This document shows, in pieces, positions 2,176 to 49,468 of a stretch of 49,606 nt of DNA (its first letter is position 1; each line of letters starts with the position of its first letter). The notes under the pieces were generated by a model. It worked only from the letters and a program-made list of their open reading frames with translations, made no database searches and had not been told where the DNA came from. The DNA lies in NCBI GenBank assembly GCA_017402995.1, contig JAFQOV010000004.1, positions 118,485-168,090 of the forward strand, in the 5' to 3' direction. A program made the position numbers and the translations under genes. The DNA comes from Candidatus Gastranaerophilales bacterium. Lineage in GTDB: Bacteria > Cyanobacteriota > Vampirovibrionia > Gastranaerophilales > Gastranaerophilaceae.

Positions 2176-4293
2176 TTACATGCCAGGTAATGGCACAGCC
2201 GAATTATTCACTTTTTCATCATCATATTCAATTAAATCAGATCTATTAACTTCGAAAGCTTTTTTTGGTTGAGCAACTTCTTTTTGCTTAGGTTTTTCTT
2301 GTTTTTTAACTTCTTGTTTTTTTGGTTCTTCAACAACTTGTTTTTGAGCTTCTGTTTGAACTTTTTTGTCTGCCATTTTTTCTTCAGATTCGTCAACAAC
2401 TTCGTCAACGTCTTCAATTGTAATTGGGCTTAATGGCACTTCACCGTTCATATTTGGGTAGTCAAACACGCTTTGTGGGAAGTTTTGAATTGCAACTTTT
2501 AAATAGTTTGCAAAAATTCTAGCAGGCAAAGACCCGCCAGTAATCCCTGGAAGTTTTGAGTTGTTGTCGTTTCCAATCCAAACCCCTGTGACGATATCAG
2601 GTGTATATCCAACAAACCAAGCGTCGCGGTAATCGTTTGTTGTGCCTGTTTTTCCTGCGACATTTGGTGCAATATTTGCTGCTTTACCTGTGCCGATTTC
2701 AACAACTTTTCTAAGCATATAAGTCATTCCAGCAGCAGTTTCAAAATTAATTACTTTAATAATTTTTGGACCCATATTTTCATAAATTGTCACACCGCGT
2801 GAGTTTTCAACGCGCTCAACAGAATAGGGTTTAACTCTGAAACCACCATTTGCAAAAGCACCATATGCGACAACCATATCGTAAAGCTTAACGCCATTTG
2901 AACCTAATGCAATTGTCATATCGCTTGCTAATGGTGTTGTAATGCCCATTTCGCGTGCTGTTTGAATTACTGCGTCAATGCCTGTTTGTTTAATCATACG
3001 AACAGCAGCAACGTTAGATGAAATCGCAAGAGCTTGCCAAATTGTGATTTTGCCACGATATTTTTGTCCATAGTTTTTTGGTGACCAATCTTGAATTGTT
3101 AATGGGGTATCTTCGATTTGCTCGCCAATATTTACCCCTTGTTGCAATGCTGTTGCATAGACAAATGGTTTAAACGAAGAACCAGATGGGCGGATTGCTT
3201 TTGAAACGCGGTCGTATTGTGTTTCTTCGTAATTTTTACCACCAATATACGCATAAATTCGCCCTGTTGTAGGTGAGAACGAAAATAATGCACCTTGATT
3301 TGTAACTTTATTTAAACCAGCCGAAGTCATGGTTGAAACAAGGGTATTTTGTGCAACATTTTGAGATTTATAATCTAGAGTGGTGTAAATTTTTAAGCCA
3401 CCTTGAGAGATTTCTTGCTCTTCAAAACCAATGTTTTTTAATTCATTTAAAACGAAATCGATAAAATAGGGAGCTTTATTAAAAGAATATATTCTTGGCT
3501 TTGTTGAAAGGGTTAAACCCTCCTTTTGAGCTGTTTCCATTTGCTCTTGAGTAATATATTTATTTCGATACATTCTTCTTAAAACTTGGTTTCTTCTTTT
3601 TAAACCAGCGTTTTTGTTTGCAAATGGTGAATATATTGATGGCGCTTGCGGTAAACCCGCAATTAGCGCTTGTTCTGCTAGAGTTAATTGGTTAAGCTCT
3701 TTGTCAAAAAATGTTCTAGACGCACTTTGCACGCCATAGACCCCAGAACCTAGATAAACAGAATTTAAATACATTTCTAAGATTTCATCTTTTGAAATTG
3801 TTTTTTCAATTCTGTGTGCGATAATTAATTCTTTAATTTTTCTGTCAAATGTACGTTCATTAGACAAAAATAAAATTCTTGCTAATTGTTGAGTGATTGT
3901 AGACGCACCTTGTTTAACAGAGCCAGATAGGATATTTGTTATGGTAGAGCGAATCATACCCATTGTGTCAAAACCGCGGTGATGATAGAAGTTTTTGTCC
4001 TCTGTTGCGATTACTGCTTGTTTTAGGTAGGTCGGAATTTTGTCAATTGATACCTTTTCAAATTTAAACGCAGTAAAGGTTTTAATCACTTCACCGTCTG
4101 CTGAATATATTGTTGTTACAGGGTTTGGTTTGATATCTTCAAAGTTTGAAATTGGGGGAAGGCTTGCTAAATAGATATTAAATGCGGCAATTGCAGCCAA
4201 AAAAGCTGAAAAGCACATTGAAAGAAAACACAAGAAAATGTTTCTTTTTTTAGGTCCCCTATAAGCCGTTCTTTTTCTTCTAACACTGTTCAT
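2176..4293 (-). CDS. mrcA: Class A penicillin-binding protein 1A (bifunctional transglycosylase/transpeptidase)
   Basis: This membrane-anchored enzyme polymerises lipid II glycan strands and cross-links their peptides. The 705-residue protein has a short basic cytoplasmic start and one membrane segment at about 18-44. The GT51 glycosyltransferase domain follows, with catalytic Glu98 in EDKNFYHHRG and QGASTITQQLAR near 128-139. The transpeptidase domain has SSFK (nucleophile Ser372, Lys375), SSN at 425-427 and KTGT at 548-551. The last ~80 residues are a low-complexity Lys/Glu/Gln tail (KKQEVKKQEK type), probably disordered. All catalytic motifs are intact. No SD is visible; an extended -10 (TGC-TATAAC) ends 8 nt before the ATG. 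Confidence 0.96.
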   Translation of the reverse strand: MNSVRRKRTAYRGPKKRNIFLCFLSMCFSAFLAAIAAFNIYLASLPPISNFEDIKPNPVTTIYSADGEVIKTFTAFKFEKVSIDKIPTYLKQAVIATEDKNFYHHRGFDTMGMIRSTITNILSGSVKQGASTITQQLARILFLSNERTFDRKIKELIIAHRIEKTISKDEILEMYLNSVYLGSGVYGVQSASRTFFDKELNQLTLAEQALIAGLPQAPSIYSPFANKNAGLKRRNQVLRRMYRNKYITQEQMETAQKEGLTLSTKPRIYSFNKAPYFIDFVLNELKNIGFEEQEISQGGLKIYTTLDYKSQNVAQNTLVSTMTSAGLNKVTNQGALFSFSPTTGRIYAYIGGKNYEETQYDRVSKAIRPSGSSFKPFVYATALQQGVNIGEQIEDTPLTIQDWSPKNYGQKYRGKITIWQALAISSNVAAVRMIKQTGIDAVIQTAREMGITTPLASDMTIALGSNGVKLYDMVVAYGAFANGGFRVKPYSVERVENSRGVTIYENMGPKIIKVINFETAAGMTYMLRKVVEIGTGKAANIAPNVAGKTGTTNDYRDAWFVGYTPDIVTGVWIGNDNNSKLPGITGGSLPARIFANYLKVAIQNFPQSVFDYPNMNGEVPLSPITIEDVDEVVDESEEKMADKKVQTEAQKQVVEEPKKQEVKKQEKPKQKEVAQPKKAFEVNRSDLIEYDDEKVNNSAVPLPGM

Positions 4294-4301
4294 AGGTACA
4301 T

Positions 4302-4310
4302 GTTATAGCA
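4302..4310 (-). promoter_or_regulatory. Extended -10 element for the PBP1A gene
   Basis: On the minus strand TGC-TATAAC forms an extended -10. Eight nt separate it from the ATG at 4293, so the transcript would begin at or next to the start codon. No clear -35 is seen, as is common for extended -10 promoters. Confidence 0.45.
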
Positions 4311-4407
4311 TAGTTTTCAAAATGCAATAGATTAATAAAACTTTAGATTGTTTGAAAAGTTGTTTTTTTAAAGAACTAAAGTTTTTGTTTTTTTAAATTT
4401 AAGATTT

Positions 4408-4430
4408 GGTAGGGTAGACTTTAGTCTACC
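4408..4430 (+). repeat. REP-like palindrome, left copy flanking the RAYT gene
   Basis: The core is a perfect palindrome with 8-bp arms, GGTAGACT-TT-AGTCTACC (4413-4430). It is preceded by GTAG at 4409-4412. A GTAG/GGAG tetranucleotide just 5' of a hairpin is the known signature of REP elements mobilised by RAYT transposases. The reverse complement occurs at 4980-5002, matching 22 of 23 positions. Confidence 0.85.
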
Positions 4431-4449
4431 AAATTTATATTATATTAAT

Positions 4450-4971
4450 ATGTCAAATTTTAAACGTTATTACCAAGACAATAATATTGTATTTGTTACG
4501 ATTGTAACATATGACCGCAAGCCTATATTAATTGAAAATATAGATTTGCTAAGAGAGTCTTTAAAAAAAATAAAATATGATTTTAATATTATAGCTGGCG
4601 TTGTTTTGCCTGATCATTTGCATTTATTAATAAGCACCAAAAAATCTGAAAATTTTTCAAAAATCATATCTTCTTTCAAGGCATATTTTTCTATGCGATT
4701 ATCAAAAAATTATACTCAAACCTTAGAACAATTAAACAGAAGAGAAAAGGGTGTTTGGCAAAGAAAATATTATGACCACGTTATTAGAAGCGAAGATGAC
4801 CTTGATAGACATTTGGATTATATTCATTTTAATTCAATGAAACATTTTCAAATCGCGCCAAAAAATTGGAAGTTTTCTTCGTTTGAAAAATACGTGAAAA
4901 AGGGTATTTATTGTAATGATTGGTGTAATTTTGAAGATAAAAATAAGATTAGCATGCTTGATTTAGAATAA
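4450..4971 (+). CDS. REP-associated tyrosine transposase (RAYT, Y1 HUH family)
   Basis: This is a single-strand DNA transposase of the IS200-like Y1 family, the subgroup that acts on REP palindromes. In 173 residues it shows the HUH metal-binding motif HLH in VLPDHLHLLIS (about 53-63), the segment GVWQRKYYDHVIRSEDD, and a catalytic-tyrosine helix RHLDYIHFNSMKH. This layout is typical of RAYTs rather than of IS200 (which uses HxQ and shorter proteins). It is bounded by inverted REP-like palindromes at 4408-4430 and 4980-5002, with GTAG outside each. There is no tnpB partner and no second copy of the gene in the window. The reading frame is intact and the base composition matches its neighbours, so it looks resident. 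Confidence 0.9.
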   Translation: MSNFKRYYQDNNIVFVTIVTYDRKPILIENIDLLRESLKKIKYDFNIIAGVVLPDHLHLLISTKKSENFSKIISSFKAYFSMRLSKNYTQTLEQLNRREKGVWQRKYYDHVIRSEDDLDRHLDYIHFNSMKHFQIAPKNWKFSSFEKYVKKGIYCNDWCNFEDKNKISMLDLE

Positions 4972-4979
4972 TTATTTTC

Positions 4980-5002
4980 GGTAGACTAAAGTCTACCCTA
5001 CT
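4980..5002 (-). repeat. REP-like palindrome, right copy flanking the RAYT gene
   Basis: GGTAGACT-AA-AGTCTACC (4980-4997) is followed by CTAC, the complement of GTAG. Read on the minus strand it repeats the left copy almost exactly. The pair forms a REP/iREP arrangement around the transposase gene. Confidence 0.85.
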
Positions 5003-5025: not shown

Positions 5026-5040
5026 GGGGGCAAAGCCCCC
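5026..5040 (-). terminator. Intrinsic terminator of the pseudopilin gene
   Basis: The hairpin GGGGGC-TTT-GCCCCC, read on the minus strand, is followed by TTTCTTTT. It lies 27 nt after the pseudopilin stop codon. Confidence 0.8.
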
Positions 5041-5066: not shown

Positions 5067-6761
5067 TTATTCCGCTTCTTCTTCTGTTTCTTCTTGCTCT
5101 TCGCCCCACTTTGTAACAACATAGCCCGTGCCACCTGTGCCTGCTGTACAAACAGTTTTAGCATCATCAAAAGCAAACGCATAAGATAAATCTAAATAAG
5201 CTCCACCGCCACCAGTGCCGTGACCCACACCACCTTGACCAATGCAATTGCTTGTGTTGCCTCCAATTCCACCATCATATGGCGTTTTGACTGCTCCGCC
5301 ATAGCCACCCTCTTCTGTGGTTGTTGTGATACCTCCTGCGAGTCCTTCAAAAGCACTTTCTGCACCTAAACTTGAACACAAAACTGTTGTCCAACGATAT
5401 CCTGTTGTTGAGTCAAGTTTTTTACAGTTCATGCTTGCTCTTGCAGTACTTATAGCATGACCAGAGCTTGTTGCTGCTTTTCCGCCTTCACCACCAATAA
5501 CCATAATTCCCCATTTAGGATTTAAGCTGGCATCTGTTAAAAGAATATATGAATCTTCGCCTTTTTCACCGTTTGTTGGTGTGTCAAAATCAACTGCGCT
5601 CATACCTGCTTTTCCGCTTTTTCCAGCATAGATTGTAATAAAACCATTAGGATAAGCGTCAATTACATCTTGCGGAATTGTGATATTTAAAACATTTGCA
5701 CCTGATGAGCCTCCTGCTCCACCATAACGCGAGCCATCATGGAAAACTTTTTCTGTTACAAGACGAAGAGAAGCGCAATAACTATCGTATCCATGTGCAG
5801 TATATGGTGGAGTATTACTAGAATAATAACGCATATACATATAGTACTCACTATAACTACTGCTTGGCATATCGTTTTCATTTATTAAAGTACCCGCAAT
5901 AGAGCAATGTCCGTGGCCTGAATTCCATAAATCAGCATCAAATTCTTCAGGACAACAAAAACTATCTGTCGGGGTTCCACTTCTGCAATATGCGCATAAT
6001 TGCAAACCATCTTTCCCTTTCCCGGCACTTAGGGTTGTAATATTTTCTACCCATGCACTAAATTCAGACCTATATGGCTTTCTCCAAAAAGTTTTGCGTG
6101 TGTAATTTGTTGTGTAGTTGTTGATAATAGGTTGGTCATACCAAGTAAACATAGAATACATAAATCGCCTCTTGGAATTATACGTAGAATCACCATTTGC
6201 ACCATTTTGCGCACTTGTATATTTTAAGACTGCATGGTTATAATCATAGCCAGTTGGGGCAGTAGTATTTGTTCCATATCGTACCCCGTCGTATACAAAA
6301 TAGCCCAAATCATCAAAAAAAGAATCATCAAACCCAGGTGCGTCACCAACATTATATTGAGTTACACAAGTGTTTTTTCCACCTGTGCCATCGCCATTGC
6401 CATTATATTCAGCAGCAACAAACATATGATATTCTGGACAATCTGCTTGGCTTCTTGGTGGTAGGCCATACAAAAGCGCTCCACCTCCACCGCCACCTGC
6501 GGCTTGAAGAGTTAAAATTTTAAAATTTTTGATTTTATCAGTAATTGCAATGGTTTGAGTTTGTCCATTGATTGCAATAGCAGAATTGTTTACAACATTA
6601 TCTCCACTTTCTCCATCTCCACTGATTGCTTTAATTTCTATATTTTTTGTCATTTTTTTTGTGATGACAGGAACAAATGCCGCTAAAACGCAAGAAATTA
6701 CAATCAAGCTGATTAGAATTTCAACAAGCGAAAAGGCTCGTTTCTTTTTCATTTTCTTCAT
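5067..6761 (-). CDS. Glycine-rich, cysteine-containing type IV pseudopilin-like protein
   Basis: The 564-residue product begins with a class III (prepilin) signal: basic KKMKKKRA, then a cleavage site A9|F10 in RAFSLVEIL with Glu at mature position 5, then a hydrophobic helix (about 10-35). The rest is far larger than an ordinary pilin. It contains a six-glycine run near 89-94 after KNFKILTLQAA (as in the glycine-rich domains seen in some surface proteins), further Gly-rich stretches at 346-353, 422-428, 484-520 and 541-546, about ten cysteines, and an acidic Glu-rich tail. It is probably processed by prepilin peptidase and displayed or exported, but no pilus genes are nearby. SD AGGAG (6768-6772) is 6 nt from the ATG. 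It has its own terminator and a structured leader. Confidence 0.8.
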   Translation of the reverse strand: MKKMKKKRAFSLVEILISLIVISCVLAAFVPVITKKMTKNIEIKAISGDGESGDNVVNNSAIAINGQTQTIAITDKIKNFKILTLQAAGGGGGGALLYGLPPRSQADCPEYHMFVAAEYNGNGDGTGGKNTCVTQYNVGDAPGFDDSFFDDLGYFVYDGVRYGTNTTAPTGYDYNHAVLKYTSAQNGANGDSTYNSKRRFMYSMFTWYDQPIINNYTTNYTRKTFWRKPYRSEFSAWVENITTLSAGKGKDGLQLCAYCRSGTPTDSFCCPEEFDADLWNSGHGHCSIAGTLINENDMPSSSYSEYYMYMRYYSSNTPPYTAHGYDSYCASLRLVTEKVFHDGSRYGGAGGSSGANVLNITIPQDVIDAYPNGFITIYAGKSGKAGMSAVDFDTPTNGEKGEDSYILLTDASLNPKWGIMVIGGEGGKAATSSGHAISTARASMNCKKLDSTTGYRWTTVLCSSLGAESAFEGLAGGITTTTEEGGYGGAVKTPYDGGIGGNTSNCIGQGGVGHGTGGGGAYLDLSYAFAFDDAKTVCTAGTGGTGYVVTKWGEEQEETEEEAE

Positions 6762-49369: not shown

Positions 49370-49385
49370 TTTTGTTTTTTGTTTA

Positions 49386-49468
49386 AAAGACTAAAGTCTT
49401 TGTTTATTTTTTTTAAGTCCTTTAGACTTCTCCGTTTTTCTTTTTATCTATAAAGGGCTAAAGCCCTT
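49386..49468. repeat. Cluster of three short palindromes with a CTAAAG/CTTTAG centre
   Basis: AAAGACT-AA-AGTCTTT (49386-49401), AAGTC-CTTTA-GACTT (49415-49429) and AAGGGCT-AA-AGCCCTT (49453-49468) follow in a row, separated by T-rich spacers. Two of the three have perfect 7-bp arms around AA, the same centre as the REP-like element at 4980-4997 (GACT-AA-AGTC). No gene is visible in 49339-49606. Confidence 0.75.

Follow-up and report, generated by a model that had tools for sequence, protein, structure and literature searches.

The described systems closest to the locus reported here are the group 3 REPtrons (subclass 2.5), which include those of the Stenotrophomonas maltophilia and Marinomonas TnpAREP proteins and in which a single-copy gene lies between inverted REPs that form a short, perfect GTAG hairpin (PMC8266576, PMC6006769). 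The Stenotrophomonas REPs have an 8-bp perfect stem, and the Marinomonas REPs have a TTTA loop (PMC8266576). The REPs of E. coli TnpAREP (group 2, subclass 2.2; solved structure 4ER8) also carry the GTAG tag, but they have long, bulged stems and occur in BIMEs. In the accessible part of a wider survey, Di Nocera 2013 (PMC3733652), GTAG REP families, including the cyanobacterial GTAG-12, -15, and -16, are described as extragenic palindromes of 20 to 40 nt with GTAG at one end that lie mostly 3' of genes and are associated with RAYTs. That part of the survey makes no mention of Melainabacteria, and no description of a REP-RAYT pair in this lineage was found in the papers searched.

Here, we analyzed a 49,606-nt stretch of DNA (the window) from the 1.7-Mb, 26-contig genome of a Candidatus Gastranaerophilales bacterium (the host genome, G000). 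The window contains a genuine REP-RAYT pair of the known kind, which is ordinary but well supported and which we are confident represents a REPtron, i.e., a RAYT gene present in one copy and flanked on both sides by its cognate REP. The nearest named relatives of the host are Candidatus Gastranaerophilales and Melainabacteria metagenome-assembled genomes (MAGs), in agreement with an initial reading of the DNA letters alone (the sequence-only reading), which had likened the host to a gut Melainabacterium. These data extend REP-RAYT pairs, with clean cross-genus co-diversification, to the gut Melainabacteria.

A RAYT gene between two inverted REPs

The segments at 4408-4430 (GGTAGGGTAGACTTTAGTCTACC) and 4980-5002 are reverse complements at 22 of 23 positions, and both this count and the coordinates agree with the sequence-only reading. 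Since only 1 of the 23 positions is mismatched, the perfect unit common to both sides is 22 nt long (Table 1), and its GTAG strand reads GTAGGGTAGACTTTAGTCTACC. GTAG directly adjoins the base of the hairpin and is outermost on either side of the open reading frame. When folded as single-stranded DNA, the REP forms a 7-bp stem with a TTTA loop (minimum free energy, -5.2 kcal/mol; z, -3.8). The earlier placement of GTAG directly outside the hairpin was accurate; the 8-bp arms and 2-nt center that had been assigned to the hairpin resulted from counting the inner T-A as a pair. The hairpin is indeed short and perfect rather than long and imperfect, but this is not a departure from known REPs, since group 3 REPs look alike in this respect (PMC8266576). 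No third GTAG hairpin was found in the whole window, and shuffled windows yielded no matches to the GTAG hairpin.

TABLE 1 Features of the REP-RAYT locus and its neighbors, in window positions
Feature	Position	Strand	Description or basis
Neighbor on the 5' side of the REP-RAYT unit, predicted penicillin-binding protein (PBP1A-like)	2176..4293	-	ORF; name from sequence features
Left REP	4409..4430	+	GTAG (4409-4412), then hairpin GGTAGAC-TTTA-GTCTACC; 20 nt upstream of RAYT start
RAYT (TnpAREP-like Y1 HUH protein), 173 aa	4450..4971	+	ORF, Pfam, NCBIfam, 4ER8 homology
HUH motif codons H56-L57-H58	4615..4623	+	4ER8 alignment; invariant in 8 relatives
Predicted catalytic tyrosine Y124	4819..4821	+	Aligned with Y115 of 4ER8; invariant in relatives
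Right REP	4980..5001	-	Same 22 nt, inverted; 8 nt past RAYT stop
Terminator-like hairpin of convergent prepilin gene, GGGGGC-AAA-GCCCCC	5026..5040	.	Sequence
Neighbor, prepilin-like gene (N-methyl motif), convergent with RAYT	5067..6761	-	ORF; PF07963 match G000:C1:125162-125236

A second family of short palindromes, with the center CTAAAG (AAAG-N-CTAAAG-N-CTT) and without a GTAG tag, was also observed. Its members lie at window positions 4370-4386, just upstream of the left REP, at 49385-49401 and 49452-49468, and at one additional locus (L009).

The 173-residue protein encoded between the palindromes had been read as an HUH/Y1 protein, and its alignment with 4ER8, which covers both the HUH motif and the tyrosine, bears this out. 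By homology, we identify it as a RAYT. It matches the Pfam family Y1_Tnp (PF01797) and scores 126.9 bits against the NCBIfam model NF047646, "REP-associated tyrosine transposase" (cutoff, 80), whereas its score against the IS200 model NF033573 is 41.6 bits, which is under the cutoff of 55. It is the sole Y1 transposase over the cutoff in the host genome. Among proteins of solved structure, its best match is E. coli TnpAREP (4ER8; residues 1 to 160; E value, 7e-19), with which the HUH, WQ, and Tyr residues align. More specifically, the E. coli residues W94, Q95, and R104, which are described as conserved in REP-associated subclasses (PMC6006769), have W103, Q104, and R113 as their counterparts here, while D109 occupies the position of E100, where an aspartate is a feature of subclasses 2.5 and 2.7 (PMC6006769). 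Across relatives at 53 to 67% identity, the RAYT ORFs remain intact, and the catalytic residues are conserved.

The protein thus shares with subclass 2.5 the DHLH and WQ motifs and the D for E at the GTAG-contact position, but it is longer (173 aa versus a median of about 151), comes from a different phylum, and has a different Y-motif (YIH[FY]N[SP] here versus YI[VI]ANP). In the window RAYT, this motif is YIHFNS, which deviates from the Y---NP described for class 2 RAYTs (PMC6006769). The deviation is minor and falls inside a well-supported clade: NP is found in a clade-mate (L059) and in the sister RAYT (L017), and NS is found in other relatives. Taken together, the pair appears to be of a short-hairpin, group-3-like style, a likeness of motifs and hairpin rather than of position in a tree with the reference subclasses.

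By analogy with characterized TnpAREP enzymes, from which we infer binding, cutting, and mobility, the RAYT would be expected to bind the GTAG hairpin in its single-stranded form and to cut near it using Y124. The cut REP would then be joined elsewhere, scattering single 22-nt REPs into intergenic gaps. A second, RAYT-independent route, namely, duplication or recombination of REP-containing DNA, would be needed for part of the copies in the host and its relatives.

REP copies are dispersed in the host genome

A search of the host genome that allowed 3 mismatches identified nine REPs, eight of them exact, against none for the reversed-pattern control, which is far beyond chance. In the ninth copy (GTAGGGTAGATTTTAATCTACC), both sides of one stem pair are changed. 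The palindrome is thus not confined to this locus, a restriction that the sequence-only reading had named as evidence against its proposal, and the host combines a low gene number with many REPs (one gene and nine REPs, a modest REP number). The copies sit in intergenic gaps, often between 3' ends; several adjoin GC-rich terminator-like hairpins, and hairpins resembling the one beside the right REP (Table 1) stand before several dispersed REPs. In G012, a genome of another genus, 45 of 45 examined copies also lay outside called genes. In being dispersed, extragenic palindromes within the 20- to 40-nt range with GTAG at the foot, these elements resemble the GTAG families as described by Di Nocera 2013 (PMC3733652). 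Unlike the E. coli REPs, they are short, perfect, and mostly single.

Unrelated host copies have only a 22- to 23-nt core in common, which indicates that the unit is the REP itself. Three loci (L003, L005, and L008) have longer common flanks of up to ~130 nt, plus a prepilin cassette, and appear instead to have been copied as parts of a larger segment. A mobile unit that extends beyond 22 nt into the flanks of these three loci (TAATATGATAAAAATTTATT-REP-TTTCTGTC) was rejected as a general solution, since the other copies are alike over 22 to 23 nt only. The cassette consists of a short prepilin and a 188- to 217-aa protein with an N-terminal signal-like segment; it is present in at least these three places and is followed by a REP in each.

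RAYT and REP co-diversify across genera

In a GTDB family sample of 239 genomes, 88 had a RAYT match; flanks were examined at 91 RAYT loci, and the tree comprised 88 sequences. The window RAYT and five others from two other genera (64 to 67% identical) group together at 99/96, and all five clade-mates have the window-type REP inverted on both sides, with one right copy off by one base. The sister RAYT (L017) has the REP GTAGGGTCGACTTTAGTCGACC, and the next clade has GTAGGGTGCAATTTATTGCACC. Across eight natural REP variants, which were hand-picked and mutually related such that shared ancestry is not removed, the stem positions are 100% paired and five of the seven stem pairs are changed on both sides, compared with 15 to 45% pairing in slid controls. 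Since sister RAYTs have REPs that bear compensatory stem changes, these comparisons indicate that RAYT and REP co-diversify and that compensatory changes keep the stem. The same RAYT-REP pair is present in the named relatives (L281 to L285; Gastranaerophilales, Melainabacteria, and other uncultured MAGs, overlapping in part with the family sample), and RAYTs of other phyla recovered in the same search mostly carry different GTAG hairpins. The REP/iREP-RAYT architecture that had been proposed for the locus is therefore upheld by the RAYT model score, the dispersed extragenic copies, and the covariation of the REP with the RAYT tree.

REP number follows the RAYT in one direction only

At least five REP copies were present in 5 of 5 genomes with the window RAYT clade but in only 26 of 234 genomes without it (P = 2.7e-5); the association of the REP with any RAYT was weak (P = 0.036). 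The earlier expectation that copy number would track RAYT presence thus holds insofar as the clade predicts five or more copies, whereas the converse fails, because the richest REP genomes, G223 (same genus; 278 copies), G027 (132 copies), and G026 (78 copies), have no detectable RAYT. Taken literally, the REP is therefore equally abundant in some relatives without the RAYT, G223 among them, which the sequence-only reading had named as evidence against the pairing. We nevertheless do not take these genomes as disproof, given that the REP varies in step with RAYT phylogeny.

Searches of the REP-rich, RAYT-less genomes with PF01797 and the RAYT protein yielded no RAYT remnants at useful E values. 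A RAYT may hide in assembly gaps, although these genomes are ~99% complete by marker genes. We read them as cases of RAYT loss or non-assembly plus RAYT-independent amplification; REPtron loss is described for many E. coli strains (PMC3733652). G223 (L118 to L122) and G026 (L124 to L127) contain dense mosaic arrays that mix two hairpin types, the REP and a second one (GTAGGGTGGACTTCAGTCCACC), with GGTAGAC and GGTGGAC stems and recurring spacers, an arrangement that resembles the mosaic elements (BIMEs) of other bacteria. With sister genomes ranging from zero to 278 copies, the family offers a natural test of REP persistence without the transposase.

Enrichment of REPs near type IV prepilin genes

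In both the host and G012, REPs adjoin type IV prepilin genes more often than expected. Based on PF07963 matches, of which the host has 32, eight of the nine host REPs are no farther than about 1.8 kb from the start of an N-methyl prepilin gene, as are four of five after related sites are collapsed (P, about 1e-4, post hoc). In G012, a prepilin gene is a close neighbor of 16 of the 45 examined copies (12 are directly 3'), relative to about 8% expected, a value estimated from the gene content of this genome (83 prepilins and about 2,100 genes in all). The prepilin-adjacent REPs of the host are found on contigs C1, C9, C19, C22, C24, and C26, and the right REP of the window is among them.

The junction on the other side of the locus bears on its history. 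The PBP1A-like gene is conserved in 19 of 21 congeners searched, and in about 10 of 18 congeners examined it follows a conserved gene that begins MAKQ, with no REP seen between the two. In the host, this junction is split: the left RAYT REP lies at one broken end (window positions 4294-4408), and the REP at C24:1561 (L008) lies beside a MAKCAQ homologue at the other. Insertion of the REPtron between the MAKQ gene and the PBP1A-like gene, followed by one REP-REP exchange, would explain both junctions.

Alternative explanations

These REP-bearing broken ends, together with the long common flanks and prepilin cassette of L003, L005, and L008, the large REP sets without a RAYT, and the many G027 copies that lie in one gene family with related flanks (see below), are also what would be expected if segment duplication, gene conversion, and REP-REP recombination were now the main means of REP spread, with the RAYT a bystander or relic. 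We consider this a possible but somewhat unlikely account, given that RAYT ORFs have stayed intact and kept their catalytic residues over 53 to 67% identity, that the remaining host copies are alike over the 22-nt core only, and that the REP sequence follows the RAYT tree.

Two other readings fare considerably worse. The Y1 transposase fold (PF01797) and the weak IS200 match would suit an ordinary autonomous IS200/IS605 insertion sequence, but that match is below its cutoff while the RAYT model is well exceeded, and the host has one copy of the gene, rather than multiple whole copies, while 22-nt REPs are dispersed alone; we therefore regard such an element as highly improbable. About as improbable, in our view, is that the hairpins have nothing to do with the protein and act as transcription terminators or RNA elements. 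Most copies do lie 3' of genes, often between convergent ones, yet many of them already have a distinct GC-rich terminator-like hairpin next to them. In addition, the 22 nt, which include an unpaired GTAG at one end, are identical in different genera and follow the RAYT tree. A REPtron thus remains our preferred explanation of the locus.

REPs in frame within the prepilin leaders of relatives

In G027, which lacks a detectable RAYT, 46 of the 88 copies listed precede a prepilin N-methyl motif by no more than 300 nt. Every one of these is on the coding strand, and nearly all REP-to-motif distances equal 2 modulo 3, the exceptions being two of 220 nt. At least 38 prepilin genes of this genome (L135, L141, L147, L159, and L221 to L254) have the same 22-nt REP in frame as RVDFSLP, upstream of (A)FTLAE. 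In all 38 genes examined, the reading frame is uninterrupted from a point upstream of the REP to the end of the motif. A Shine-Dalgarno-like start precedes the REP in 36 of them and is absent from the other two within the stretch examined; none of the 38 has such a start between the REP and the motif, where 13 lack any ATG, GTG, or TTG. The G027 REP thus appears to be translated within prepilin leaders, before the processing site. The leader of type IV prepilins is removed by prepilin peptidase. Since it is expected to be cut off, the leader would be a tolerant landing place for a REP, and the in-frame copies suggest that a protein segment removed at maturation can serve as a safe harbor for repeat DNA.

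Six G012 prepilin leaders have a different REP, GTAGGTTGGGCATACTTGCCCAAC, in frame at the same place, where it reads VGWAYLP, VGWAFLP, or VGWTYLP (L193, L194, L199, and L256 to L259). A survey of leaders in 383 genomes returned mainly G027 (39 matches) and G012 (7 matches, not all REPs); the other single matches were mostly not hairpins, and the host genome had none. REPs and Rickettsia palindromic elements (RPEs) in frame within genes are known, and N-terminal cases may be misannotated starts, according to PMC6006769 and PMC3733652. As described in PMC3733652, RPEs resemble the G027 and G012 leader REPs in being palindromic repeats in frame in coding sequence, but they strike many unrelated genes, and those compared are CGTC tagged, whereas the G027 cases cluster within a single gene family and within a segment that processing is expected to remove. 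We found no published report of REPs concentrated in prepilin leaders in the literature searched, which is no proof of absence.

Common flanks among the G027 copies suggest that part of the leader-REP set reflects gene-family amplification. With respect to recombination at the REP, the G027 leaders yielded one four-gamete set only, in coarse clusters. Upstream and downstream similarity were uncorrelated, but the same was true of downstream similarity and the mature-region control, which makes this observation weak. It is conceivable, albeit unlikely as a whole, that in this family the evolution of type IV prepilins and the REP system are linked. In this scenario, RAYT-tagged hairpins would come to lie next to prepilin genes, would in some species turn into translated parts of the leader that is discarded, and would there act as recombination joints that shuffle or multiply prepilin genes once the RAYT is gone. 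The prepilin link and the RAYT-free REP expansions are the observations most worth following. In addition to the REP, the G027 prepilin leaders seem to include translated copies of other dispersed repeats.
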